A DNA stretch of 45,549 nt from Planctomicrobium piriforme. GTDB taxonomy: Bacteria; Planctomycetota; Planctomycetia; Planctomycetales; Planctomycetaceae. Position numbers and translations under genes: made by a program. Positions 18,768-34,027 of the stretch are shown here, one piece after another. Every line of letters begins with the position of its first letter. Position 1 is the first letter of the stretch. The notes under the pieces are model-generated. The model saw only the letters and a list, made by a program, of their open reading frames with translations, was not told the DNA's origin and searched no databases. The stretch spans positions 1 to 45,549 of the forward strand of contig CAMATH010000063.1 of assembly GCA_945860955.1 (NCBI GenBank), given 5' to 3'.

Positions 18768-19325
18768 GGGGGCGGCGGCGGTACAATCGGTCGGTTTCAC
18801 AAAATACTCAGTGCACAGGAAAATACGACTCTCAATCCTGCGGGTCAAGCGGCCGTCAGGAAACGGATTGGCGAGAGTCCCGGCGAAGAGGCGAAGCCCC
18901 AACGGAGGTCAACTCAGTTCGCGACGGATGGTTCGCTTGGGATGTTGCGCCAACCCCGAGTGCGTCGAGCGACGAAGGTGGCACAGCGGGCCGCGCACTC
19001 GCAACGTAGGCGTCTTTCTCCGAAAGACTGCCTCCACTGTGCCTCCGCCGGCGAAACGACGCACTGGGGCAGTCCCATGACATCGGGCAAATTCGAGGAC
19101 GCGTGAAGTCTGACTGCGGGGTCAATGCAGAACGACAGACGTCGAATACGCTCGAACAGGTCCATATCATCCAAGTCGCCATGCCGCCGCTTCGGACGTC
19201 GACCCGCGCAAAGCGAAAACTCGGCAAGTTGTGCAGAAACTGCCAAATTTAGGGGACAACAGGCTGCCGGCCGGGGGTTCGTCTTGACGGATCAGCGATT
19301 CGCAGGCCAAAATAGCGGAAGCGCA
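18768..19325. other. Intergenic region between divergent genes
   Basis: These 558 bp separate the zinc-ribbon gene (minus) and the FHA gene (plus). The open frames inside (for example on the plus strand from 19125 into the FHA gene) have Arg/Ser-rich translations with no domain. I see no clear repeat, RNA or terminator; promoters for both genes must lie here. Confidence 0.4.
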
Positions 19326-19862
19326 ATGCGGGAAGCGGTTTCCGGCGAATGCGCCGACTCCAGGAACTGGGTTTCCCCCGTGTTCGCGCAATTGGTTCCC
19401 GTTGATGGTGGCGTACCGATCACAATCGATCGGGATGTGTGCGTCATTGGCCGGCAGCGGGAGGGGTGTGATGTGGTCGTCGAACGCAAAAGCGTTTCGA
19501 AAATGCACTGCATTCTGGTCAAAACCGACGGCCTGCTGTTCGTTCGCGACCTGTTCAGTACCAATGGCACCAAGGTGAACGGGCAACGAATCACCCGCGG
19601 GGCGCTGCTTCCGGGAGACACGCTCTCGCTGGCGGGAGAAAAGTTCCGAATCCACCTGGGGCCATCACCCGCAGCCAGCGAGTCAGCGAATAACGATCAT
19701 ACGGTGGAAATGGTCATACCCGATGAAGACGAGTCGTTTGGCAACGGCGATCTTGTCGCGAACGGGCACAACCAGGTCTCCGAGGGTTCTGCGGCGGGGA
19801 TGAAATTCGTGCGTCTGCCCCCTGGGGGGATTGCACTCGACACTGGACATGGGCAACAGTAG
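19326..19862 (+). CDS. FHA domain protein
   Basis: A 178-aa cytoplasmic protein with one forkhead-associated domain (about residues 38-105), which binds phosphothreonine peptides made by Ser/Thr kinases. Diagnostic residues are present: the GR pair (GRQREGCDVVV, about 42-43), the RKSVSKMHC segment with the phosphate-contacting Ser and structural His, and STNGTKVNGQRI with the Asn-Gly. The C-terminal 60 residues are acidic and probably disordered. The ATG at 19326 has GCGGAA just upstream; the longer frame from 19125 adds a basic tail without homology. A Ser/Thr kinase is encoded 4.4 kb away, but the two are not in one operon, so a direct link is only a guess. Confidence 0.85.
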   Translation: MREAVSGECADSRNWVSPVFAQLVPVDGGVPITIDRDVCVIGRQREGCDVVVERKSVSKMHCILVKTDGLLFVRDLFSTNGTKVNGQRITRGALLPGDTLSLAGEKFRIHLGPSPAASESANNDHTVEMVIPDEDESFGNGDLVANGHNQVSEGSAAGMKFVRLPPGGIALDTGHGQQ

Positions 19863-22745: not shown

Positions 22746-23125
22746 GGTTTGATGTCTCCGAGGCGTACAGGCGTCAATCCGCAGCCTGAAGGGAGTCAAC
22801 ATTCGCGGATGCGAGATCGACGATTCAGACCAACGGCTGGTGGGGCTTCGCTCTCCGCGATTGGTGAAACCATCGGAGAAGCGGAGGGACAAGTGGGGAG
22901 GGCTGGGCAATTCGTGAGGCTGACTCACAAATCGCCAGTCGTTCAATGGATCAATCTATCCGCATGATAGAGAGGGGGGGGAAGGGGCGTCAAAGGAGTT
23001 GATCGTCCGGAAATTCCGATTGCCGAAATTAGAAAGTTGAGACTGAAGAAAAAACACCGTCGCCGATTGCACGGCAGAGAAGGGGCATCTTCTCAGCGAG
23101 TCAACGGATTGTAGTACGCGGTTGA
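22746..23125. other. Intergenic region upstream of the PPC-domain gene
   Basis: 380 bp between two minus-strand genes. It should hold the promoter of the PPC-domain gene. Around 23049-23096 a small stem (GAGAAG..CTTCTC) and a second weak one followed in the minus-strand direction by six T residues may end the protease/permease transcript. Nothing else recognised. Confidence 0.35.
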
Positions 23126-23722
23126 TCACCCGGTGAGTTGAAATTCAGCAACAAGTATCGCGGTTAAAACAAGCCAGGTGATTCCGGCCTGACGCCACGA
23201 AACCGGTTGTGGGTGCGGTCCAAAGCCAAAAGGGCCGGATTGACCATTCCACAGGGCGAAGCCGAGCGGCACGGTGGCGACTCCGAACGCCACCAGCGTC
23301 CAGGCGGGGGAACCATGTCGAACCAGATCCCCCGCGTCTCCCACTCCCCACCACACACCAACCGCCAGGTACAGCCCGTTGGTGACCAGGCAGAATCCCG
23401 CGAAAAACCTCCAAAGGTGCGTCGTGGAATGCTGGAGCAACGACGTGAATCCCCACAACACCAGTGGCAGCACAACTCCCACGACCGGCCCGCCCCACAC
23501 GATCACGAGCGGATATGAATTTGACTCGACATCGGTACGGGAGATCGCGAAAGGATGCAATACGACTTTCGTCACCCGCGCTCCCGATGCCCATGCCGCC
23601 AGAGCATGGCCGCTTTCGTGGACGATCTGCATTCCCAGCCAGCAGAGAGTCAGAAACGGTACCACAAAAAACCAACGGGCCACACCGAGAGAGTCGGTTG
23701 GCCCGTTGGAGGGTTGGGTCAT
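23126..23722 (-). CDS. M50-like membrane metalloprotease
   Basis: A 198-aa integral membrane protein with about five to six hydrophobic segments. The first contains MQIVHESGHALAAWASGARV, a HExxH zinc motif placed inside a helix as in site-2-protease (M50B-like, PF13398) proteins. The next segment, WGGPVVGVVLPLVLWG, corresponds to the family's second region. The third zinc ligand (Asp in the LDG or NPxxDG block) is not obvious in this short protein, so activity is uncertain. ATG at 23722 (MTQPSNGPTDSLG) chosen; upstream codons overlap the permease. It lies 26 bp after the permease stop, so it is probably co-transcribed with it. Confidence 0.78.
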   Translation of the reverse strand: MTQPSNGPTDSLGVARWFFVVPFLTLCWLGMQIVHESGHALAAWASGARVTKVVLHPFAISRTDVESNSYPLVIVWGGPVVGVVLPLVLWGFTSLLQHSTTHLWRFFAGFCLVTNGLYLAVGVWWGVGDAGDLVRHGSPAWTLVAFGVATVPLGFALWNGQSGPFGFGPHPQPVSWRQAGITWLVLTAILVAEFQLTG

Positions 23723-23748
23723 GAATCGGAATCCGTGGCCAAGGAAAC

Positions 23749-25248
23749 TCAGGCCGTCGTGCTGGCGGCTTTGACCGGATCCCGGAAGCCAAGCCAGAAC
23801 AGGATCATCGAGGCCAAAGCTCCCAATGCGGGCCACAGCCAAATGTGGAACCAGTCTTTTCGTTGGGCCACTCGCCATTCGAGGCGGGTGACTTTACCGT
23901 CGGAGTTCGCGTCCGCCTTTTTGACCGCTTCGGCCAAGTCGGCTTTGGCGTAACGGATCTCGTTCGCTTCGCCTTCGTTTTCCACAAGTTCCGCCGGGAG
24001 GGCATCGGCGGTGAGAGTCCCGTCTTCCTTGAGGCTCAACGCTTTCGCGAGTCCCTTTTCTCCAGTCACATCCCAGGCGGGAATCGCGACTTTTTTACTT
24101 TCGGAGGTTCCCTTGTCGCCCTTGACGGTCGCCACCACCTGCGACGACGGATAGGCGTCGACCGTTTTTCCCGCGAGATAGTTTCCGACAAACATTCCGA
24201 CTCCCAATGTCACGAACGCGATAAAGCTCTGGGCGCTCGCGCGGGTCGCCGCCGTCACCCGGCTGTCGACGTAAATCTGGCTGGCGACGAAGAAGAAGTC
24301 ATAGCAGATGCCATGCAGGACCAGTCCGAACACCACCAGCGGGAAGGCGAGTGTGCCAAAGCAAAAATAGCGCACCACCCAGGCGGCCATCCCGACCGCC
24401 AGCATTTTCTTCACGCCCAACCGGGCGATGAAGAAGGGCATCGCCGCCATGAAACCGACTTCCGACAACTGACCAATCGTTTGCAGCGCGGTGGGATACG
24501 GAGCATCGATTTCTCCCAGAAACACATTCGCGAAGCTGTAGTAGAACGACAGTGGAATGCAGATGAAGAACGAGCAGACCACGAAGACCAGAAACGACGG
24601 ATCCTTCAGCAAACTCAACACGCCCTGTCGATCATCGGCGGGAAGGGCCGCGGAAGCGTTCTTGCCGGCGGGAGGGGTATGCGGAAGCGTCAACGCGAAC
24701 ACACCCAGCAACGCCGAGAAGACACCCGACAGCACAATCGGGGAATTCGGCGTCTGAATGACCGCGGGCAGTACATCCTTCATCTTGGGGTTCTGTAGCA
24801 CAAACCCGACGATCCACCCGACGACGATCCAGCCCCAGGTTCCCCAGACGCGAATCGGCGGGAACTCCTTCTCGGGCTCCTTGATGTTCGCGAAACTGAT
24901 GGAATTCGTCAGTGCCAACGTGGGCATGTAGCACATCGCGTAGATCAGCATGATGACCCACAACGGTGTGAAATCTGTGGTATAGGCCGCCGCGAACATC
25001 AGGGCGGCTCCCACCAGATGCAGGATCGCGATCATCTTTTCGGTCGCAAACATCTTGTCGGCGAGGAAGCCCATATACAGCGGGGAGATCATCGCGGCGA
25101 TCGCGGTCGTCCCATAGATCAGGCCGATTTGCGCCCCGGTGAATCCCAGCACGCTCCCGAGATACGCCCCCATCGGGACGGCCCAGGCCCCCCAGATGGC
25201 GTACTGCAGGAACATCATGATCGAGAGTTTGAGCTTCACTGGCGACAT
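23749..25248 (-). CDS. MFS transporter, NHS (nucleoside:H+ symporter) type, with EF-hand insertion
   Basis: A 499-aa inner-membrane permease with 12 predicted helices. The N-terminal LQYAIWGAWAVPMGAYLG, LIYGTTAIAAMISPLYMGFL, ADKMFATEKMIAILHLVGA and the later FPPIRVWGTWGWIVVGW are characteristic of the NHS family (NupG/XapB relatives), which import nucleosides with protons. Unusually, between helices 11 and 12 there is an insertion of about 100 residues (about 365-465) ending in DANSDGKVTRLE (446-457), a textbook EF-hand calcium loop with ligands at positions 1, 3, 5, 9 and 12; EDGTLTADALPAEL before it may be a degenerate partner. This loop should face the periplasm. The substrate is uncertain. 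Divergent from lysS, with an AGGTG site upstream of the ATG. Confidence 0.88.
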   Translation of the reverse strand: MSPVKLKLSIMMFLQYAIWGAWAVPMGAYLGSVLGFTGAQIGLIYGTTAIAAMISPLYMGFLADKMFATEKMIAILHLVGAALMFAAAYTTDFTPLWVIMLIYAMCYMPTLALTNSISFANIKEPEKEFPPIRVWGTWGWIVVGWIVGFVLQNPKMKDVLPAVIQTPNSPIVLSGVFSALLGVFALTLPHTPPAGKNASAALPADDRQGVLSLLKDPSFLVFVVCSFFICIPLSFYYSFANVFLGEIDAPYPTALQTIGQLSEVGFMAAMPFFIARLGVKKMLAVGMAAWVVRYFCFGTLAFPLVVFGLVLHGICYDFFFVASQIYVDSRVTAATRASAQSFIAFVTLGVGMFVGNYLAGKTVDAYPSSQVVATVKGDKGTSESKKVAIPAWDVTGEKGLAKALSLKEDGTLTADALPAELVENEGEANEIRYAKADLAEAVKKADANSDGKVTRLEWRVAQRKDWFHIWLWPALGALASMILFWLGFRDPVKAASTTA

Positions 25249-25500
25249 GGAGCGACACCTGAACGGAAGGGAAACCGGGTGGGTGGGAACGGCGGCGGGA
25301 CGTGCGACAGGCTGGGCCTGCCGGGACGGTCGGAATCATCCCGATTCCCGCGACCCGAGGCAAGCGAACAGCCTTGACGGGCGCGCCGATTCGCCCGATA
25401 GTGGTCCGTTCGCCTCCCGACTGACCGGAGGCCGGGGTACGTGCCGAGCTGGGTGTGTCTTCCCGTTGATTTCGCGACAAGCCGACCATTTTGAACGACC

Positions 25501-27030
25501 ATGAGTGAACCCGATCGTCTGGAACAAGCCCGCCTCGACAAGCTGCGCGAGATCGAAGCCCTGGGAATCGATCCCTGGGGCGAACGGTTCGACGATCACA
25601 AACCGATCCGCCAGGCCCGTGCCGAGTGCCCGGCCGAAGCGGGCGTCGTGGGCTCGGTCTGCCGCGTCGCCGGCCGGATCATGCTGCGGAACAACAAGGG
25701 AAAACTCAAATTCTTCCACATCCAGGACTGGACCGGCCGCATCCAGGTGATGTGTTCCAAAGCCGACTTTTCCGAAGCGCAATGGAAGCTCGTCGAACTG
25801 CTCGACTTGGGGGATCTCGTCGGCATCGACGGTCACCTGAAAGTCAGCAACACCGGCGAAAAGACGATCGGGGCCACCCAGGTCACGTTCCTTACCAAGT
25901 CACTCGCGCAACCTCCGGAAAAGTTTCACGGCGCAAAAGACATCGAATTGCTGCTCCGCCAGCGGTACATCGATCTCATTTACAACGACGGCGTGCTGGC
26001 CCGCATGCTGCAGCGTGGCAAGATCATCGACTCGATCCGCCAGACGCTGCGCGAACGGAATTTCGTGGAAGCCGAGACACCGGTTCTGCACGCGATCGCC
26101 GGCGGTGCCGCCGCCCGGCCGTTCACCACGCACCACAACGCCCTCGACATGGGACTGTTCCTGCGGATTGCGCTCGAACTCCACCTCAAGCGGCTCATGG
26201 TGGGAGGGGTCGAACGGGTGTACGAGATCGGCCGGGTGTTTCGGAATGAGGGGGTCGACAGCACCCACAATCCCGAATTCACGATGATTGAGCTGTACCA
26301 GGCGTACGGCGATTACGAGTCAATGATGGAGCTGACCGAGGCGATCTTCACGAACGCGATCCGCGCGCTCACCGACGCAGCGATCGCCGCGGGGGAAGAG
26401 CCTCCCGCGAACCCCTTCATCCGTCCCTGGGGAGACAAGCTGGTCGACTTCACCGCGCCGTGGAAGCGGGCGAAATACGGCGACCTGTTCAAGGAACACG
26501 CCGGCTGTGAAATGCACGACACCGCCGCCGTCGCCGAGGTCGCCCGCAAGCACCACATCGAAACCGCCGGCAAGCACCCCGACGTCGTGATCAACGATGT
26601 CTTCGAAGCGGTGGTCGAAGACCATCTGACCGGCCCGGTGTTCGTCATCGACTACCCGGCGGCGATGTGCCCCCTGACCAAAAGGAAAAAGGGACACCCA
26701 GAAATCGCCGAGCGGTTCGAGTTGTTCATCCACGGGATGGAACTCGCCAACGCCTACACCGAACTCAACGACCCCCGGCTGCAGGAAGAATTGTTCCAGA
26801 CACAGCTCGCGGGACTGTCGGCGGAAGACAGCATGGCGAAGATGGACCACGACTTCGTGCGGGCGCTCAAGGTCGGCATGCCGCCGGCGGGGGGCCTGGG
26901 CATTGGCATCGACCGCCTGGTGATGCTCCTGACCAACAGCCACAGCATCCGCGACGTGATCTACTTCCCCCTGCTGCGGCACGAACGCCCGGCGGGCGCG
27001 AAGGAGGAAGACGCGTCCGACGAAGCCTGA
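25501..27030 (+). CDS. lysS: Lysyl-tRNA synthetase, class II
   Basis: A 509-aa enzyme of normal length that charges tRNA-Lys with lysine using ATP, in the cytoplasm. The N-terminal OB-fold (about 50-155, [20 protein letters not shown]) binds the anticodon. The class II core follows, with motif 1 near [20 protein letters not shown], motif 2 [20 protein letters not shown] (about 241-260) and motif 3 [20 protein letters not shown] (about 464-483). All are intact. ATG at 25501. It is divergent from the MFS gene and converges with the second DUF1501 gene, only 34 bp separating the stops. Confidence 0.96.
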
Positions 27031-27064: not shown

Positions 27065-28555
27065 TTAGCCCAACAACTGATTAACCACCTTCCCACCCAC
27101 ATCGGTCAAGCGGAAGTCGCGTCCCTGGAAGCGGTAGGTGAGTTTCAGGTGATCGATGCCGAAGAGGTGCAGAAACGTCGCCTGCAGATCGTGAACGTGG
27201 ACGGGGTCTTCCACAATGCCCCAGCCGATCTCGTCGGTCTTGCCGATCACCTGGGCTCCTTTGATCCCGCCGCCCGCGCACCACAGACTGAACGCGAACG
27301 GGTGATGATCGCGGCCGGTCACCTTTTCGAATCCTTTGCGGTTCTCGCCTAATGGGGTGCGGCCAAACTCACTGGCCCAGACGACCAGGGTGCTGTCGAG
27401 CAGGCCCCGCTGTTTGAGATCCTTGATCAGTGCCGCGACCGGCTGGTCGGCCATTTGACAGGCCAGCCCCAGTTCGCGGTCCAGATTGCTGTGATGGTCC
27501 CACGACGCATGGACCAGATTGACAAAACGGACGCCGCGCTCGACCAGTCGCCGGGCGAGCAGGCAGTTGCGGGCGAACGCTTCAAAACATCCCTTGGGGC
27601 CGCCGCGCCAGCCCTCCAATTCCGGCTCGGCCCGGCCCAGTCCATACGCCTCTTGCGTCTCCTTCGTCTCACCCGAAAGATCGATCAACTCCGGGGCGGC
27701 AGCCTGCATGCGGTGGGCGAGTTCGTATGCCGCGATTCGGCTGGCGATTTCCGGATCGTGCAGCGCCGCCAGTCGCTGGCGATTGAGCGCGGTGACACCA
27801 GCGATTGTCTGTTCCTGAAGTTCGCTGGAAACGCCACCGGGGTTGGCGAGATTCAACACCGGCTCCCCCTGATTGCGAAACAGCACCCCCGCATAACTGG
27901 AAGGAAGAAAACCACTCCCCCAGTTCGACGTCCCGCCACTGGTCCCTCGTCCGGCCGTCAGCACGACGAAGCCGGGCAGGTTCTGCGTTTCGGCCCCCAA
28001 GCCATATGCCAGCCACGACCCAATACTCGGCCGGCCGAACATCTGCGACCCGGTATTGAGCAGCAACTGCCCGGGATGATGATTGAACGCCTCGGTGTGC
28101 ATTGAGCGGACGAGTGCGATCTCATCGACACAGGTCGCCAGGTGAGGGAGGTAGTCCGACAGTTCCGTCCCACACTGACCGTGCGGCTTGAACGTCCGGG
28201 GACACCCCATCAACCGGGCGGTTTCCTTTTGCAAAAAGGCGAATCGGACCTTTTCGGTCATCGACTCGGGGAGAGGCTGACCGTCGAGTTCGTTGAGTTT
28301 GGGCTTGGGATCGAACAAGTCGATCTGACTCGGTGCCCCTTCGAGATAAATGTAGATGCACGCCTTCGCCTTGGCGGGGAATTGCCCTCGCTTCGCGGCC
28401 AGGGGATTGTCCCCCGCATCGTCGGCGAGCAGTCCCTGATCGCGAAGCAGCGTGGCCAGCGCGAGCGATCCCGCCGCGCTTCCAAGAAACTGGCGCCGCG
28501 GAAGGGGACTGCCGGTCAGAGATTCGGGGTGTGTCATGGTGGTATCCGGATTCAT
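27065..28555 (-). CDS. DUF1501 exported protein (second copy)
   Basis: A 496-aa DUF1501 protein with a twin-arginine-type N-terminus (LPRRQFLGSAAGSLALATLL). Conserved blocks: ACIYIYLEGAPSQIDLFDPK, GSQMFGRPSIGSWLAYGLG, DSTLVVWASEFGRTPLGE, GRDHHPFAFSLWCAGGGIKG and VHVHDLQATFLHLFGIDHLK, matching the first copy at 7761-9194 block for block while being clearly divergent in between. The start codon ATG (28555) overlaps the stop of the upstream PSD1 gene by one base (TGATG), implying translational coupling. An ATG at 28537 is a possible alternative. Function is as uncertain as for the first copy; the pair is a hallmark planctomycete operon. Confidence 0.92.
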   Translation of the reverse strand: MNPDTTMTHPESLTGSPLPRRQFLGSAAGSLALATLLRDQGLLADDAGDNPLAAKRGQFPAKAKACIYIYLEGAPSQIDLFDPKPKLNELDGQPLPESMTEKVRFAFLQKETARLMGCPRTFKPHGQCGTELSDYLPHLATCVDEIALVRSMHTEAFNHHPGQLLLNTGSQMFGRPSIGSWLAYGLGAETQNLPGFVVLTAGRGTSGGTSNWGSGFLPSSYAGVLFRNQGEPVLNLANPGGVSSELQEQTIAGVTALNRQRLAALHDPEIASRIAAYELAHRMQAAAPELIDLSGETKETQEAYGLGRAEPELEGWRGGPKGCFEAFARNCLLARRLVERGVRFVNLVHASWDHHSNLDRELGLACQMADQPVAALIKDLKQRGLLDSTLVVWASEFGRTPLGENRKGFEKVTGRDHHPFAFSLWCAGGGIKGAQVIGKTDEIGWGIVEDPVHVHDLQATFLHLFGIDHLKLTYRFQGRDFRLTDVGGKVVNQLLG

Positions 28556-30933
28556 CACTCGCGCGTCACAAACTCATCCAGGTTCAGCACCACCCGCGAC
28601 AGCGCGATGGTGGCGGCGAGATCGAGTCGCTGGTCGTCTGTGAGGGGCTGTTCCGAAGAAGTGGAAGACTTTTGGGTGGCCCCGGGTTGCGCCCCGGGAG
28701 CGTTCTCCGCCACCGGCGGATCTCCAATCAGTTTCCCCAGCAAGGTCGGCGACCTGGCGAGTGTCGACCGCAACTGTTGAAACAGATCGTGCGATGTCTG
28801 GCGTTCCTCGGACGAGGGATTTCGGGCCAGGCAGAGCGAAAACAGGCGGTCGATCCGCGGGACCAAATCCGCGGGTTGTTCCCGATACACCCGTGTCCCC
28901 AGCGCCTGGGCGCATTCGACGAAGACAGGGTCGTTCAGCAGAGTCAGCGACTGGAGCGGTGTATTTGAACGTTCGCGGCGGGTGCAGACGATGTTCGACT
29001 CGGGCGCATCGAAAGTCATCAACATGGGGTACGGGCTGGTTCGCTGAAACCACGTGTACATTCCCCGCCGATATTTGTCGGGGCCTGCGCTCTCCACCCA
29101 TTTGGTTCTGCTCGCGTAGGTCAATTCGGAAACTCCGGCTGGCTGTTTGGGACGGACGCTCGGCCCCCCGATCGCGGGATGCAACAACCCGCTCGCCGCC
29201 AGCGCCTGATCCCGCACCAGCTCGGCCTCGACCCGCAGGCGATTCTGTCGCGCCAGCAGCGTGTTCTTGGGGTCGCGGTCGACCAGGTCGGCGCGCGGCT
29301 TCGATTCCCGGCGATAGGCCGCCGAACTGGTGATGATCTTGATCATTCGTTTCAAACTCCAGGGCCCGCGAAACGTGGGGGGCGTGTTGGGGCGCGGAGG
29401 AGGAACCATCTCCAACGTCGGCAGGGTGAATTCGGCCGCCAGCCAGTCGAGGAGTTCCGGGTGCGAAGGAAGGTCTCCGCGCGTTCCAAAGTCCTCAACA
29501 CTGGGGACAATCGCCTGTCCGAAGAGCTGTCTCCAGACCCGATTCATCGTCACCCGCGGCGTCAACGGGTTCTGGGGATGAGCCAGCCATCTCGCCAGAT
29601 CCATTCGAGTCGCCACCTGGTCCGCCGCGACTCCCAGCGGAGGCAACACCTCGGGCGTGTGGGGCGGAACCTCATCCCCCGGACGGAGGAAATCGCCGCG
29701 AAGCAGCACGTGGGTGGGACGCCGGGGAGCGATCTCGGAAATCGTGGGAGCGACCGCCTTGTCGTCCCCCGGGAGCGCAGCGGCGAGATCCAACTCGTTT
29801 CCCTGATTGAAGAACGCGAAGAATCCGTAGTATTCGCGCAAGGATAACGGGTCGTATTTGTGTGAGTGGCACTGCGCGCAACCCAGGGTCAAACCGAGCC
29901 AGACGGTCGCGGTGGTGTTGACGCGATCGACAACCGCCGCGACTCGAAACTCCTCCGGATCAACACCCCCCTCTTTGTTGGTGAGCGTGTTGCGATGAAA
30001 CCCCGTCGCGATTTTCTGGTCGGGTCGGGCCTCCGGAAAAAGGTCGCCAGCCAGTTGCTCGATGGTGAACTGATTGAAGGGCAGATCGCGGTTGAGCGCC
30101 ACGATCACCCATTGTCGATACCGCCACGCATAGGGACGGGCCGAGTCTTTCTCGTAGCCATCGCTGTCGGCGTAGCGGGCCAGATCGAGCCAATGCCGGC
30201 CCCAGCGTTCGCCAAAATGAGGCGACGCCAGTAGCTCTTCGACGAGCAATTCGTACGCGTTGGGGCGAGTGTCGGCGAGGAAGGCTGCGACCTGTTCGGG
30301 TGTGGGGGGCAATCCCAGCAGATCGAGTGACAGCCTTCGGATCAATGTTGAGCGGTCCGCCTCGGGGGAGGGTTCGATCTTTTCGCTTTCCAGCCGCGCC
30401 TGCACGAATCGGTCGACCATGTTCCGCACCAGGGCCTCCTTCTTGACCACAGGCGGAGCCGGGCGCTTGACCGGCTGAAACGACCAGTGCTTCGACGCCT
30501 GACCGGTGACACTTTTCGTTTCCACGCCCCATTTGGCCCCCTGATCAATCCAGCCGCGAACGAGCGCGATCTGTTCCTTCGAGAGCTGTTCGCCTTCCGG
30601 CGGCATCAGAATGTCGGGATCCAGGCTGGCGATGTATTTGACCAGCAGGCTCTCGGCGCTCTTTCCCGGTTCAAACGCTTTGCCAGAATCGCCCCCGCGG
30701 AGCGCGTCCCCCTCGCGATCGAGTCGAAACCCGGAAAGCTGCTTGTCCGCCCCGTGACAACTGTCACAGAACTTGGCGAAGATTGGCCGAATGTCGGTAG
30801 TGAAGTCGACCGCGCGGTCGACCGCGGCGGGGAGCGGCTTGATGTCGTCCGCGACGCCCCTGCCGACGATGGTGTGAAGCACCACAACCAGCGTGAGAAA
30901 CTCGCGACGAAGCCAGAATCGGGAACTGAACAC
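28555..30933 (-). CDS. PSCyt1-PSD1 protein (cytochrome c-like + DUF1549 + DUF1553), second copy
   Basis: A 792-aa exported protein from the GTG at 30933. Signal peptide about 1-28 (LRREFLTLVVVLHTIVGRGV), then PSCyt1 with CDSCHG (Cys56, Cys59, His60) and LMPPEG, DUF1549 (RHWLDLARYADSDGYEKD, CAQCHSHKYDPLS) and DUF1553 (RVTMNRVWRQLFGQAIVPSV; RRERSNTPLQSLTLLNDP). It lacks the inserted jelly-roll-like segment of the first copy, which explains most of the 216-residue length difference. The frame is open up to an ATG at 31023, but that start would place the signal peptide 30 residues inside; no clear ribosome site helps. Overlaps the DUF1501 gene downstream by one base. Confidence 0.9.
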   Translation of the reverse strand: MFSSRFWLRREFLTLVVVLHTIVGRGVADDIKPLPAAVDRAVDFTTDIRPIFAKFCDSCHGADKQLSGFRLDREGDALRGGDSGKAFEPGKSAESLLVKYIASLDPDILMPPEGEQLSKEQIALVRGWIDQGAKWGVETKSVTGQASKHWSFQPVKRPAPPVVKKEALVRNMVDRFVQARLESEKIEPSPEADRSTLIRRLSLDLLGLPPTPEQVAAFLADTRPNAYELLVEELLASPHFGERWGRHWLDLARYADSDGYEKDSARPYAWRYRQWVIVALNRDLPFNQFTIEQLAGDLFPEARPDQKIATGFHRNTLTNKEGGVDPEEFRVAAVVDRVNTTATVWLGLTLGCAQCHSHKYDPLSLREYYGFFAFFNQGNELDLAAALPGDDKAVAPTISEIAPRRPTHVLLRGDFLRPGDEVPPHTPEVLPPLGVAADQVATRMDLARWLAHPQNPLTPRVTMNRVWRQLFGQAIVPSVEDFGTRGDLPSHPELLDWLAAEFTLPTLEMVPPPRPNTPPTFRGPWSLKRMIKIITSSAAYRRESKPRADLVDRDPKNTLLARQNRLRVEAELVRDQALAASGLLHPAIGGPSVRPKQPAGVSELTYASRTKWVESAGPDKYRRGMYTWFQRTSPYPMLMTFDAPESNIVCTRRERSNTPLQSLTLLNDPVFVECAQALGTRVYREQPADLVPRIDRLFSLCLARNPSSEERQTSHDLFQQLRSTLARSPTLLGKLIGDPPVAENAPGAQPGATQKSSTSSEQPLTDDQRLDLAATIALSRVVLNLDEFVTRE

Positions 30934-31047
30934 GGCGGGAGAACCAGGGAAAACGAATGCGGAGTGGTTTTCTGCCGGTCCTTCGATTTGACCAGCGGCG
31001 GGGGAGGGGAATTGATACCCCACACGGCAACAATTGCGACATTCCGC

Positions 31048-31204: not shown

Positions 31205-34027
31205 TCATCGCGCCGAACCAACACTCCACAACAGCGATTCCAGCGGCAGCGCTTTCACGCTCACCCGAACTTCGTCGATCAGCGCCTGCGCATCGCGGGC
31301 GATCGCGCCGGCGTGAAAGCCCCGACCGACCGTCCAGGTACCGTCGTTGCGAATCAGGCCAAGCGAGAATTCCGATTCTCCTTCCAGTTCATATCCCTTG
31401 CCGGCGTTCAGGTAGAGTCGCAGCGTTTCTCCGTCACAGACAACGGCCGCGTGTCGCCATTCTCCCTGAGGAATCGGCTGTCGACTCGCGACCGTGCGCA
31501 CTTTCCACGTGCGGTCGATGGCGACAATCGCCAGGTGTCCATCGGCACGCACCAAAAGTTGCAGGGGAGCTTCGTCAGCACGGGTCGGTTTGCCGTCCTC
31601 GCCGACCAGCGTCTGATCGCGATCGGTCGCCGCCATCTGGAACGACGCTTCAACCGTGAACTCCGTAAATGGAAACGTGTTGATCACATCCATATGGGTT
31701 CGCGATCGACCGGGGTCGGTATAGAGATCGCGCGTCGCACCCGGTGTCGATTCGGTGTCATCGAGTGCCCCACGGTTCACGACCCCCAGCGTGGGAATCC
31801 CCGGCGCGGGGACGTTCGCCGAGAGTTTCGGAGCATTCCCTGCCGCGTAGGCGTACAGGTGATTGCGATGACCACTGGAATCGCGGACCGCGAATTTGTC
31901 AGCCGCTCCCCGATCGTGAGGCACCAGTTCGCCCGGCGTCCCTTCTTCGAATCGCCAATGGGCGATCACGCTCGCCTCGACCTTTTCCTTCGCCCGCAGT
32001 TTTCGCAGCGGGGCGTACAGTGTCTGGTGAGCGTCGGCGAGGGTTTTGGGATCGAGTTTGTTGATTTCGCGGTCATACGTCATGAGGCCGTTCACTTCGA
32101 TTTCGACGTCGGTCGTTTGCGTGTAGATCGCCGCGCTCAAGTGCGATTCGATCATCGGACGCAGGTCAGCGATGTATTTGAGATACGTCGCCTGCAACTC
32201 CTCGCGGGTCTTGAACTGCCGATAGCCCCAGTTCTTGGAATCGAGCCAGGTGTGCCCTTCGAGCGGCAGGCCCAAACCGCCGTATTCCCCCAGCACCGAC
32301 GCCCGGTGATTCTCGGCGGGTGGGAATTCGGGTTGTGGATAGAAGTGAATGTCACGCACATCTCCCACGCCAAAGTCATTACCGCCGCTGGCGCTGATCA
32401 CGATTCGTGACGGATCCCGATCTTTGACAAACGTTGTCCAGCCGATCGTTTCGGATTGGCCCCAGCCTTCATTGAAAGGAACCCAGGCGACGATGCACGG
32501 GGCGTTGTGCCGCGCGTTCAGCAGCGCGGTGAGCTCGGGGCCGTATGTCCCGCCCGCTTTCCGAAGATTCAGTTCCATGATCTCCCAACTGGGATCGCGC
32601 CGGGCGACTTCGGGCCGCGGGGTGCTTCCTTTTTCGACGTGCTCGGTTCCATCGACAGGCCAGGGGACGTTGGCGTCGCCACTGGGCATGTCCTGCCACA
32701 CCAGCAGCCCGAGCCGATCGCAATGGTAATACCAGCGGGCCGGTTCGACCTTCACATGCTTGCGGACCATGTTGAACCCGAACCGCTTCGTCATTTCGAG
32801 ATCGTAGCGCAGCGCCTCGTCGGTGGGGGCCGTGTACAGTCCGTCGGGCCACCATCCCTGGTCGAGAGGGCCAAACTGAAACAGCGGCTCATCGTTCAAC
32901 AGAATCCGCCGCATGCCGTTGAGATCGTTCCCCAGTCCGACTTTTCGCATGCCGAAGTAACTGGTGACTTCGTCGATGATTCCCTTCTCGTCGGCGATCT
33001 GGAGGGTGAACTCGTAGAGTTGCGGCTGATCTGGCGACCAACGCTTGAATCCAGGCGTTTTTAGAGTGACGGGCTCGTTGGCAATCCGTCCTTCTACTTG
33101 CCATCCGTCCGTCGCCGACGCGATCTTGACCGCCGGCGTCGGTTCGCCGAGGTCTTTCACTTTTTCAAATGGGATGCCAGGTTTCTTGGAAAACTCCACC
33201 GCGTCGACGGCGATCCGGACTTCCGCCGAGTTGACGTCGGTGTCGATCCGCAATCCGCGAATGAATCCTCGCGGGCTGACTGGTTCCAGCCAGACGGTTT
33301 GCCAGATGCCGGTCACCGGCTTGTACCAGATCCCCTCGGGTTTCGCAACCTGTTTGCCGCGTGGTTGCGGTCCCGCATCGGTCGGATCCCAAACCACGAC
33401 GCGCAGTTCGTGTTGAACGGGGTCTGTCGGCTTCGACGCGGGCTTTCGCACCGCGAGTGCGTCGGTGATGTCGAAAAAGAACGCGTCATAGCCCCCCTTG
33501 TGTTCCCCAATCGACACGCCGTTCACATAGACCTGCGTCTGCCAGTCCACCGCACCGAAATGGAGCAGAACTCGATTCGTATCCAGCTTCCACTCGGGAG
33601 GGACTGTGAACGACCGCTGATACACCAGGTGATTCGCCTGCCCGACAAACCGTCGGACCCTTGAGAGTTCTGACTCAACGGGAAACGGAACCAGAATCTT
33701 GCCGTCAAATTTTGAGGAACCAGGCTCAAAGGTGTCTTTGGGGAGGATCGCATAGTCCCACAGACCATTCAGATTCTGCCACCGCTTCCGCACCAGTTGA
33801 GGTCGCGGATATTCGGGATGGACGTTGTCGGGGGAGACCTCCTTCGCCCAGCGGGTTCGCAGCCTGCCTCCGACCGGACGGTTCGCCGCGGGTTGATCGT
33901 TCGCTGCTGCTGCCGTCGCTTGGGTCGGGGAATCGGCGGCCGACAGCGTACTGGCGAACGGCACCGTCAATGCCAATAGAACAAGAACCCACCAGAAAGT
34001 GAGCAACGCGGGAAAGTGTCTGTTCAT
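31205..34027 (-). CDS. Glycoside hydrolase family 2 (beta-galactosidase-like) with LamG tail
   Basis: A 940-aa secreted enzyme. Signal peptide 1-31; GH2 sugar-binding domain (about 70-250, WQNLNGLWDYAI, FGAVDWQTQVYVNGVSIGEH, GGYDAFFFDITD); Ig-like domain (about 255-365); TIM-barrel catalytic domain (about 370-650) with the predicted acid/base Glu520 (PFNEGWGQ) and nucleophile Glu581 (LGEYGG); and a LamG/concanavalin domain (about 688-935, HWRFEEGTPGE, EFTVEASFQMAATDRDQTLV, IDEVRVSVKALPL) that probably binds a polysaccharide. GH2 enzymes remove beta-linked galactose, glucuronate or mannose; which one is not clear here. Both catalytic acids are present. Upstream spacing 286 bp to a divergent gene. 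Confidence 0.93.
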   Translation of the reverse strand: MNRHFPALLTFWWVLVLLALTVPFASTLSAADSPTQATAAAANDQPAANRPVGGRLRTRWAKEVSPDNVHPEYPRPQLVRKRWQNLNGLWDYAILPKDTFEPGSSKFDGKILVPFPVESELSRVRRFVGQANHLVYQRSFTVPPEWKLDTNRVLLHFGAVDWQTQVYVNGVSIGEHKGGYDAFFFDITDALAVRKPASKPTDPVQHELRVVVWDPTDAGPQPRGKQVAKPEGIWYKPVTGIWQTVWLEPVSPRGFIRGLRIDTDVNSAEVRIAVDAVEFSKKPGIPFEKVKDLGEPTPAVKIASATDGWQVEGRIANEPVTLKTPGFKRWSPDQPQLYEFTLQIADEKGIIDEVTSYFGMRKVGLGNDLNGMRRILLNDEPLFQFGPLDQGWWPDGLYTAPTDEALRYDLEMTKRFGFNMVRKHVKVEPARWYYHCDRLGLLVWQDMPSGDANVPWPVDGTEHVEKGSTPRPEVARRDPSWEIMELNLRKAGGTYGPELTALLNARHNAPCIVAWVPFNEGWGQSETIGWTTFVKDRDPSRIVISASGGNDFGVGDVRDIHFYPQPEFPPAENHRASVLGEYGGLGLPLEGHTWLDSKNWGYRQFKTREELQATYLKYIADLRPMIESHLSAAIYTQTTDVEIEVNGLMTYDREINKLDPKTLADAHQTLYAPLRKLRAKEKVEASVIAHWRFEEGTPGELVPHDRGAADKFAVRDSSGHRNHLYAYAAGNAPKLSANVPAPGIPTLGVVNRGALDDTESTPGATRDLYTDPGRSRTHMDVINTFPFTEFTVEASFQMAATDRDQTLVGEDGKPTRADEAPLQLLVRADGHLAIVAIDRTWKVRTVASRQPIPQGEWRHAAVVCDGETLRLYLNAGKGYELEGESEFSLGLIRNDGTWTVGRGFHAGAIARDAQALIDEVRVSVKALPLESLLWSVGSAR

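Follow-up and report, generated by a model that had tools for sequence, protein, structure and literature searches.

The window, a 45,549-nucleotide stretch of Planctomicrobium piriforme DNA, encodes a nucleoside:H+ symporter (NHS) family transporter that carries an inserted module, probably an EF-hand pair, between its last two transmembrane helices, and we modestly favour a reading in which calcium is a structural cofactor that stiffens this module at the extracytoplasmic end of TM12. Most likely, the insert is a calcium-stabilised extracytoplasmic module on TM12 that is normally loaded with the ion. The features on which the analysis draws are the following (positions in the window, with residues numbered along the transporter):

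23749..25248, minus strand: transporter gene, 499 aa, MFS nucleoside:H+ symporter (NHS), PF03825 (profile, fold; start consistent with homologues)
24298..24312, minus strand: GXXXD of TM10 (G313-D317), the NHS protonation motif (aligned with NupG D323; motif from excerpts of PMC11979927)
23854..24153, minus strand: predicted extracytoplasmic insert between TM11 and TM12, residues 366-465 (full model, insert-alone model, charge bias of the other loops)
24085..24141, minus strand: predicted beta-hairpin opening the insert, residues 370-388 (full and insert-alone models)
24073..24081, minus strand: P-x-W motif (P390, W392), conserved without exception in alignment A4 (22 rows)
24001..24036, minus strand: vestigial EF1 loop, residues 405-416, SLKEDGTLTADA (alignment with relative L039, short strand at 411-412 in the model)
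23878..23913, minus strand: canonical EF2 loop, residues 446-457, DANSDGKVTRLE (EF patterns, conservation)
23788..23853, minus strand: TM12, residues 466-487 (model)
23126..23722, minus strand: M50-like membrane protein with HESGH, 26 nt downstream of the transporter (translation)
25501..27030, plus strand: lysS, divergent neighbour and syntenic anchor (profile matches, synteny)

Transporter core and position of the insert

The transporter reading frame runs on the minus strand from an ATG at 25248 to a stop that ends at 23749, and its product is assigned to the NHS family by profile match, predicted fold and the GXXXD motif. PF03825 (Nuc_H_symport) covers residues 4-370 (E 9.5e-108; 361.2 bits, cut-off 25.9), and the AlphaFold2 model of the full protein, built with 18 sequences (pLDDT 87.2, pTM 0.87), predicts a 12-TM MFS fold nearest to YegT and NupG. 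In structural comparison this model scored Z 50.9 against YegT (384 residues aligned) and 48.0 and 45.2 against NupG, the next row standing at 37.0; these nearest solved proteins (8zoj for YegT, 7dl9 and 7dla for NupG) share its 12-TM core, at 41% and 32% identity in structural alignment, as well as GXXXD in TM10. Residues G313-D317 and the TM8 acidic partner E263 align with NupG G319-D323 and E264, the motif being that given in excerpts of PMC11979927. The original prediction of a nucleoside-type MFS permease is borne out for the NHS/MFS family, but "nucleoside" stands here as a family name only, since the transporter misses the cut-off of TIGR00889, the NCBIfam nucleoside permease model (343.6 vs 446.1 bits), and since YegT, its closest solved relative, displayed no significant nucleoside binding by ITC according to the same excerpts (PMC11979927). 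Proton-coupled nucleoside uptake is, for this protein, putative. A search of the genome itself for a paralogue of the transporter, at E up to 0.001, returned none.

The model places eleven TM helices ahead of residues 366-465 and TM12 (466-487) after them, in agreement with the approximately 100-residue insertion between helices 11 and 12 that had been proposed from the sequence. The TM11-TM12 stretch measures 105 residues in the window protein vs 8-23 in 44 short-loop proteins, and relatives of ~40-47% identity mostly lose their match near residue 370; YegT and NupG, unlike the window protein, are 418-425 aa long, align only to about residue 369 and have no such insert. By parity with an N terminus on the inside, by homology with YegT and NupG and by charge bias, the insert is predicted to be extracytoplasmic. 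With helix ends placed by eye from the model, lysine and arginine account for 16 of 96 residues in the cytoplasmic segments vs 2 of 45 in the remaining loops on the periplasmic side, and the insert itself (16 K+R in 103 residues) is uninformative on side. The periplasmic location claimed at the outset therefore stands, as neither the model nor the charge bias gave a cytoplasmic placement.

EF-hand character of the insert

Within the full model the insert is folded, with ten-residue blocks at pLDDT 83-95, and modelled alone it reaches a pLDDT of 87.6. The predicted order is a hairpin (370-388), the P-x-W motif (390-392), an EF1-like unit, two strands, helix E (435-445), the EF2 loop and helix F, with a short strand at 453-454 inside the EF2 loop and the F helix (455-462) ending three residues ahead of TM12. 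The EF2 loop, DANSDGKVTRLE, conforms to the 12-residue EF consensus at ligand positions 1, 3, 5 and 12, so that the claim of an insertion ending in a canonical calcium loop is upheld by the sequence; EF2 is a putative calcium-binding site. The loop of EF1, SLKEDGTLTADA, keeps D5-G6-x-L8 and is missing ligands 1, 3 and 12. Where only a single loop had been seen, the insert looks from its sequence like a degenerate EF-hand pair behind a beta-hairpin, with one full loop.

The predicted fold suggests paired helix-loop-helix units through weak matches, the window EF1 being without ligands: a Foldseek search of the insert gave a best E of 0.72, weak and with at least one unrelated protein among the matches listed, and the VIA comparison a best Z of 4.7, likewise weak. 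All 50 VIA matches listed nevertheless appear to be EF-hand proteins, in part from their titles, and most align over about residues 24-101 of the modelled insert, a range that spans the two EF units. The profile built from 22 inserts plus TM12 matched calmodulin among solved chains at 1.8e-9, via the EF2 region. In single scans of these 22 inserts at E up to 0.1, PF00036 was found in 18, PF13202 in 16 and the pair model PF13499 in nine. The window insert plus TM12 stays under the Pfam EF-hand gathering cut-off (17.4 vs 25.9 bits), whereas relative L039, which has both loops, exceeds it with 35.8 bits and clears the cut-offs of three EF-hand families in all, and L071 and L084, which have lost both, match no family. 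Dockerin type I was considered as an alternative identity and rejected (13.5 bits vs a cut-off of 22.9, E 0.084). The insert resembles calmodulin-type EF pairs (CRACR2a, 6psd, and the calmodulin lobes) in its predicted helix-loop-helix pair and its EF2 loop ligands, and differs from them in its degenerate EF1, in the additional beta-hairpin and P-x-W, in its low fold similarity (Z at most 4.7) and in its location outside the membrane within a transporter.

A chance occurrence of the loop motif is rejected by sequence shuffling and by the relatives that have no insert. Of 42 unique long inserts, 27 contain a PROSITE-like EF pattern, whereas shuffled inserts gave 0.03 on average and no more than 2 in any of 2000 rounds, and none of the 44 short-loop relatives has it; a relaxed ligand pattern occurs in 34 of the 42, vs a shuffle mean of 3.2 and maximum of 10, and also matches the unrelated insert of L026, which was left out of the EF count. 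Both patterns are absent from the insert of L083.

Conservation, distribution and genomic neighbourhood

Relatives were gathered with P0001, for which loci of 30 matches were listed, and with two profiles (A3, A4) made from inserts that bear EF loops, extended by TM12, profile matches G912 and G920 being left out of the rows read. Removal of 21 duplicate proteins reduced 107 to 86 unique ones (42 long-insert and 44 short-loop), and a counter-sample added 20 further genes, hand-picked for long open frames, in none of which the TM11-TM12 loop holds the EF pattern or P-x-W. With "EF-type" defined as an insert of at least 50 residues with [LIV]P.W, the full set of 106 comprises 40 EF-type inserts, 51 short loops and 15 other inserts; L107 and L110, missed by the anchor pattern, were counted from the EF-pattern scan. 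An EF loop with ligands 1, 3, 5 and 12 is kept in 33 of the 40 EF-type rows, a rate that is biased because these rows were collected by EF-bearing insert profiles: EF2 only in 18, EF1 only in 12 and both in three (L039, L072 and L098). The remaining seven (L071, L084, L106, L109, L111, L112 and L113) have lost both loops, and calcium is therefore not required throughout the EF-type group. The strict EF pattern was found in no other protein examined outside these 40.

The branch of the window protein (16 rows) shows a clear asymmetry between the two halves, the EF1 ligand pattern being lost in all 16 rows and EF2 kept in 15. Position 1 of EF2 is D in 15 rows, position 12 is E and the following residue W in all 16, and positions 1 and 12 are among the best-conserved columns of the insert in this branch. 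Conservation of the EF-hand residues in homologues carrying the insertion, which the original prediction took as its touchstone, is hence found close to the window, yet not in the seven wider relatives that lack both loops. Between the window protein and its nearest relative the insert is identical at 54 of 100 positions vs 316 of 393 in the core, and insert dN/dS, computable in three of five pairs and with dS near saturation, lies at 0.15-0.31. In a tree built from the core alone (98 rows, eight of the 106, mostly near-copies, having been dropped), the 40 EF-type rows group together with the short-loop protein L080 at a fork left unsettled, and a constraint placing the EF-type rows in one clade is not rejected (p-AU 0.641). 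Judging from the alternative halves that survive, the ancestral insert was probably a full EF pair of which different lineages retained different halves. The module was probably acquired once, between TM11 and TM12, in planctomycetes.

In the window's family the insert is present in 10 of 170 genomes, after 12 profile matches of which G003 covered TM12 only and G163 a different insert; 23 of 397 genomes of the class sample matched the insert profile, some over TM12 only, as did five of 392 in the phylum sample, some of them not EF-type. One other order, which was also sampled a second time with an overlapping sample of the same group, gave matches in 36 of 246 genomes, five of them over TM12 only. 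The named carriers (L031-L039) are planctomycete MAGs, with isolate names that refer to lakes, groundwater, a pond and other settings.

Inserts of other kinds occupy the same site in further relatives: some of 115-133 residues, helical-looking by sequence (L118-L121, L129, L132 and L026), some of 57-59 residues (L125-L128, L134 and L137), one of 108 (L122) and one of 61 (L083). None of them contains either the strict EF pattern or P-x-W. In NHS transporters, the loop between TM11 and TM12 is a hot spot where extracytoplasmic inserts unrelated in sequence recur, a site at which these transporters take extra domains.

On the downstream side, the M50-like gene is separated from the transporter by 26 nt if its start is the ATG at 23722, an ATG at 23878 implying overlap with the transporter, and the two genes are possibly co-transcribed in the window. 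Its product has the HExxH motif (as HESGH) and falls under the Pfam cut-offs (PF13398, 24.5 vs 26 bits; PF02163, 14.9 vs 27.2 bits). The suggestion that this protease could process the permease did not survive comparison: an M50-like gene appears in none of nine downstream flanks (1.3-3 kb) of EF-type relatives, M50-like homologues occur in 113 of the 170 family genomes, and among the matches listed, with coordinates compared by eye, adjacency to an NHS gene was seen just in the window and in G164, where the adjoining transporter has no EF insert. A conserved role as processing protease of the permease was rejected on these grounds.

G164, a genome from the same genus, keeps the order M50 - NHS - lysS (L157, G164:C1306:5000-10206, compared with window positions 23107-26894), and its lysS is 99.1% identical to that of the window over 465 residues. 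Nucleotide similarity between the two stops at 23715 and restarts at 25366, and the slot between is filled by a transporter of 42% identity with a short loop and no EF-hand. The most economical explanation is an in-place replacement of the EF-type transporter in the lineage of G164, with hidden paralogy or misassembly of the contig (G164 consists of ~1340 contigs) as a possible alternative. G165 has a lysS of 88% and an EF-type transporter of 74% identity, and no M50 match. More widely, lysS is common to the flanks of two of nine EF-type relatives. The M50-like gene of G164 (L157 ~1648-2217) is matched in two overlapping pieces, as if these were mutually out of frame through a frameshift or an assembly error. 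Elsewhere in the window lie an FHA-domain protein (19125-19862, plus strand; PF00498, E 1.3e-15), a DUF1501 protein immediately downstream of a PSCyt1-PSCyt2-PSD1 protein (27065-31023, minus strand) and, at 31205-34027, a glycoside hydrolase 2-like protein that carries Laminin_G_3.

Proposed role of calcium at the outer end of TM12

Envelope concentrations of calcium are as a rule high and stable. For a module that faces this plentiful supply, we consider a structural role with constant loading likelier than signalling. Envelope calcium would occupy EF2 most of the time, and loaded EF2 would stabilise the fold of the module and stiffen it where it sits on TM12's outer end, from where it might prop or shield the outward mouth, or dock a partner, in the manner of the unrelated elements of Rv1410 and QacA; calcium would then act as a structural cofactor and not as a signal. 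Three observations argue for such a milder role than gating: the module's place in the envelope, the G164 homologue that lacks EF-hands, and the relatives in which loops were lost.

It appears unlikely that the transporter is calcium-gated, with EF2 sensing external calcium and a change of shape displacing the F helix and TM12 to set the outward gate and make uptake depend on calcium. The almost straight passage of the F helix into TM12 in the model and the conserved EF ligands would suit this mechanism, whereas a steady ion makes a poor signal, a single surviving loop per pair suggests low affinity, seven of 40 relatives do without both loops and the corresponding position in G164 is taken by a homologue without an EF-hand. 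The periplasmic face offers no additional argument: among positions that separate the 40 EF-type from 58 other rows it holds 19 top positions out of 30, vs 94 of 376 overall, and was rejected as evidence for gating since a control clade without the insert gave 18 of 30. Rv1410/MHAS2168 and QacA, MFS transporters of the DHA2 type, likewise carry an extracytoplasmic element between their last two helices (TM13-TM14 in QacA), which excerpts of PMC10576003 and PMC10425836 describe as needed for transport. Truncation of the TM11-TM12 extension in Rv1410 or a homologue abolishes or reduces lipid transport (excerpts of PMC10576003), and deletion of QacA EL7 or mutation of its EL1 interface abolishes efflux, which favours gating and, for QacA, shows that an element at this place is able to affect the outer gate, although the excerpts of the same study also describe the TM11-TM12 loop of MdfA as having no gating role (PMC10425836). 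These elements differ from the insert in being helical hairpins or extended helices and in belonging to exporters, and the excerpts mention no calcium loop in them. A more elaborate scheme, where an integral calmodulin-like EF pair sets the outward gate and external calcium at EF2 moves TM12 and switches or tunes proton-coupled uptake, strikes us as decidedly unlikely; if a calcium-gated MFS symporter did exist here, the natural variants with EF1 only, EF2 only, both loops or none would be ready-made tests of it.

That several sequence-unrelated types of insert share the TM11-TM12 site could also mean that this loop is a docking port, with the module binding a partner or wall component of the envelope and calcium shaping its surface, and Rv1410 indeed uses its TM11-TM12 extension with the lipoprotein LprG (excerpts of PMC10576003). 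We regard this anchoring role as improbable, as no neighbour among those compared is conserved beside the EF-type gene, neither M50 (none of nine flanks) nor lysS. Still less credible, and very improbable overall, is a decaying passenger, an eroding EF pair with a calcium site that has no role: erosion is visible in the uniform loss of the EF1 ligand pattern in the window's branch and in the relatives that have lost both loops, but EF2 persists in that branch though the surrounding insert has diverged well beyond the core.

Relatives with both loops, with EF1 only, with EF2 only and with neither form a natural series on how external calcium might tune a secondary transporter, to which the EF-less transporter that takes the place of the EF-type one at the G164 locus adds a further member. 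No EF-hand domain within an MFS transporter is described among the open-access literature matches listed, which does not prove absence. The human ATP-Mg/Pi carrier (4zcv, 4zcu) also has a calcium-bound EF-hand domain in a secondary transporter, similar to the insert at Z 4.2, and differs from the window protein in belonging to another superfamily. The EF domain of that carrier is a separate N-terminal domain and not a loop insert. Among other EF-hand ORFs of the window's own genome, nine were compared (L138-L141, L146-L148, L150 and L151), each with 2 to 8 EF-like loops and at most one hydrophobic segment (0-1), a composition that fits secreted or anchored proteins, which they likely are.
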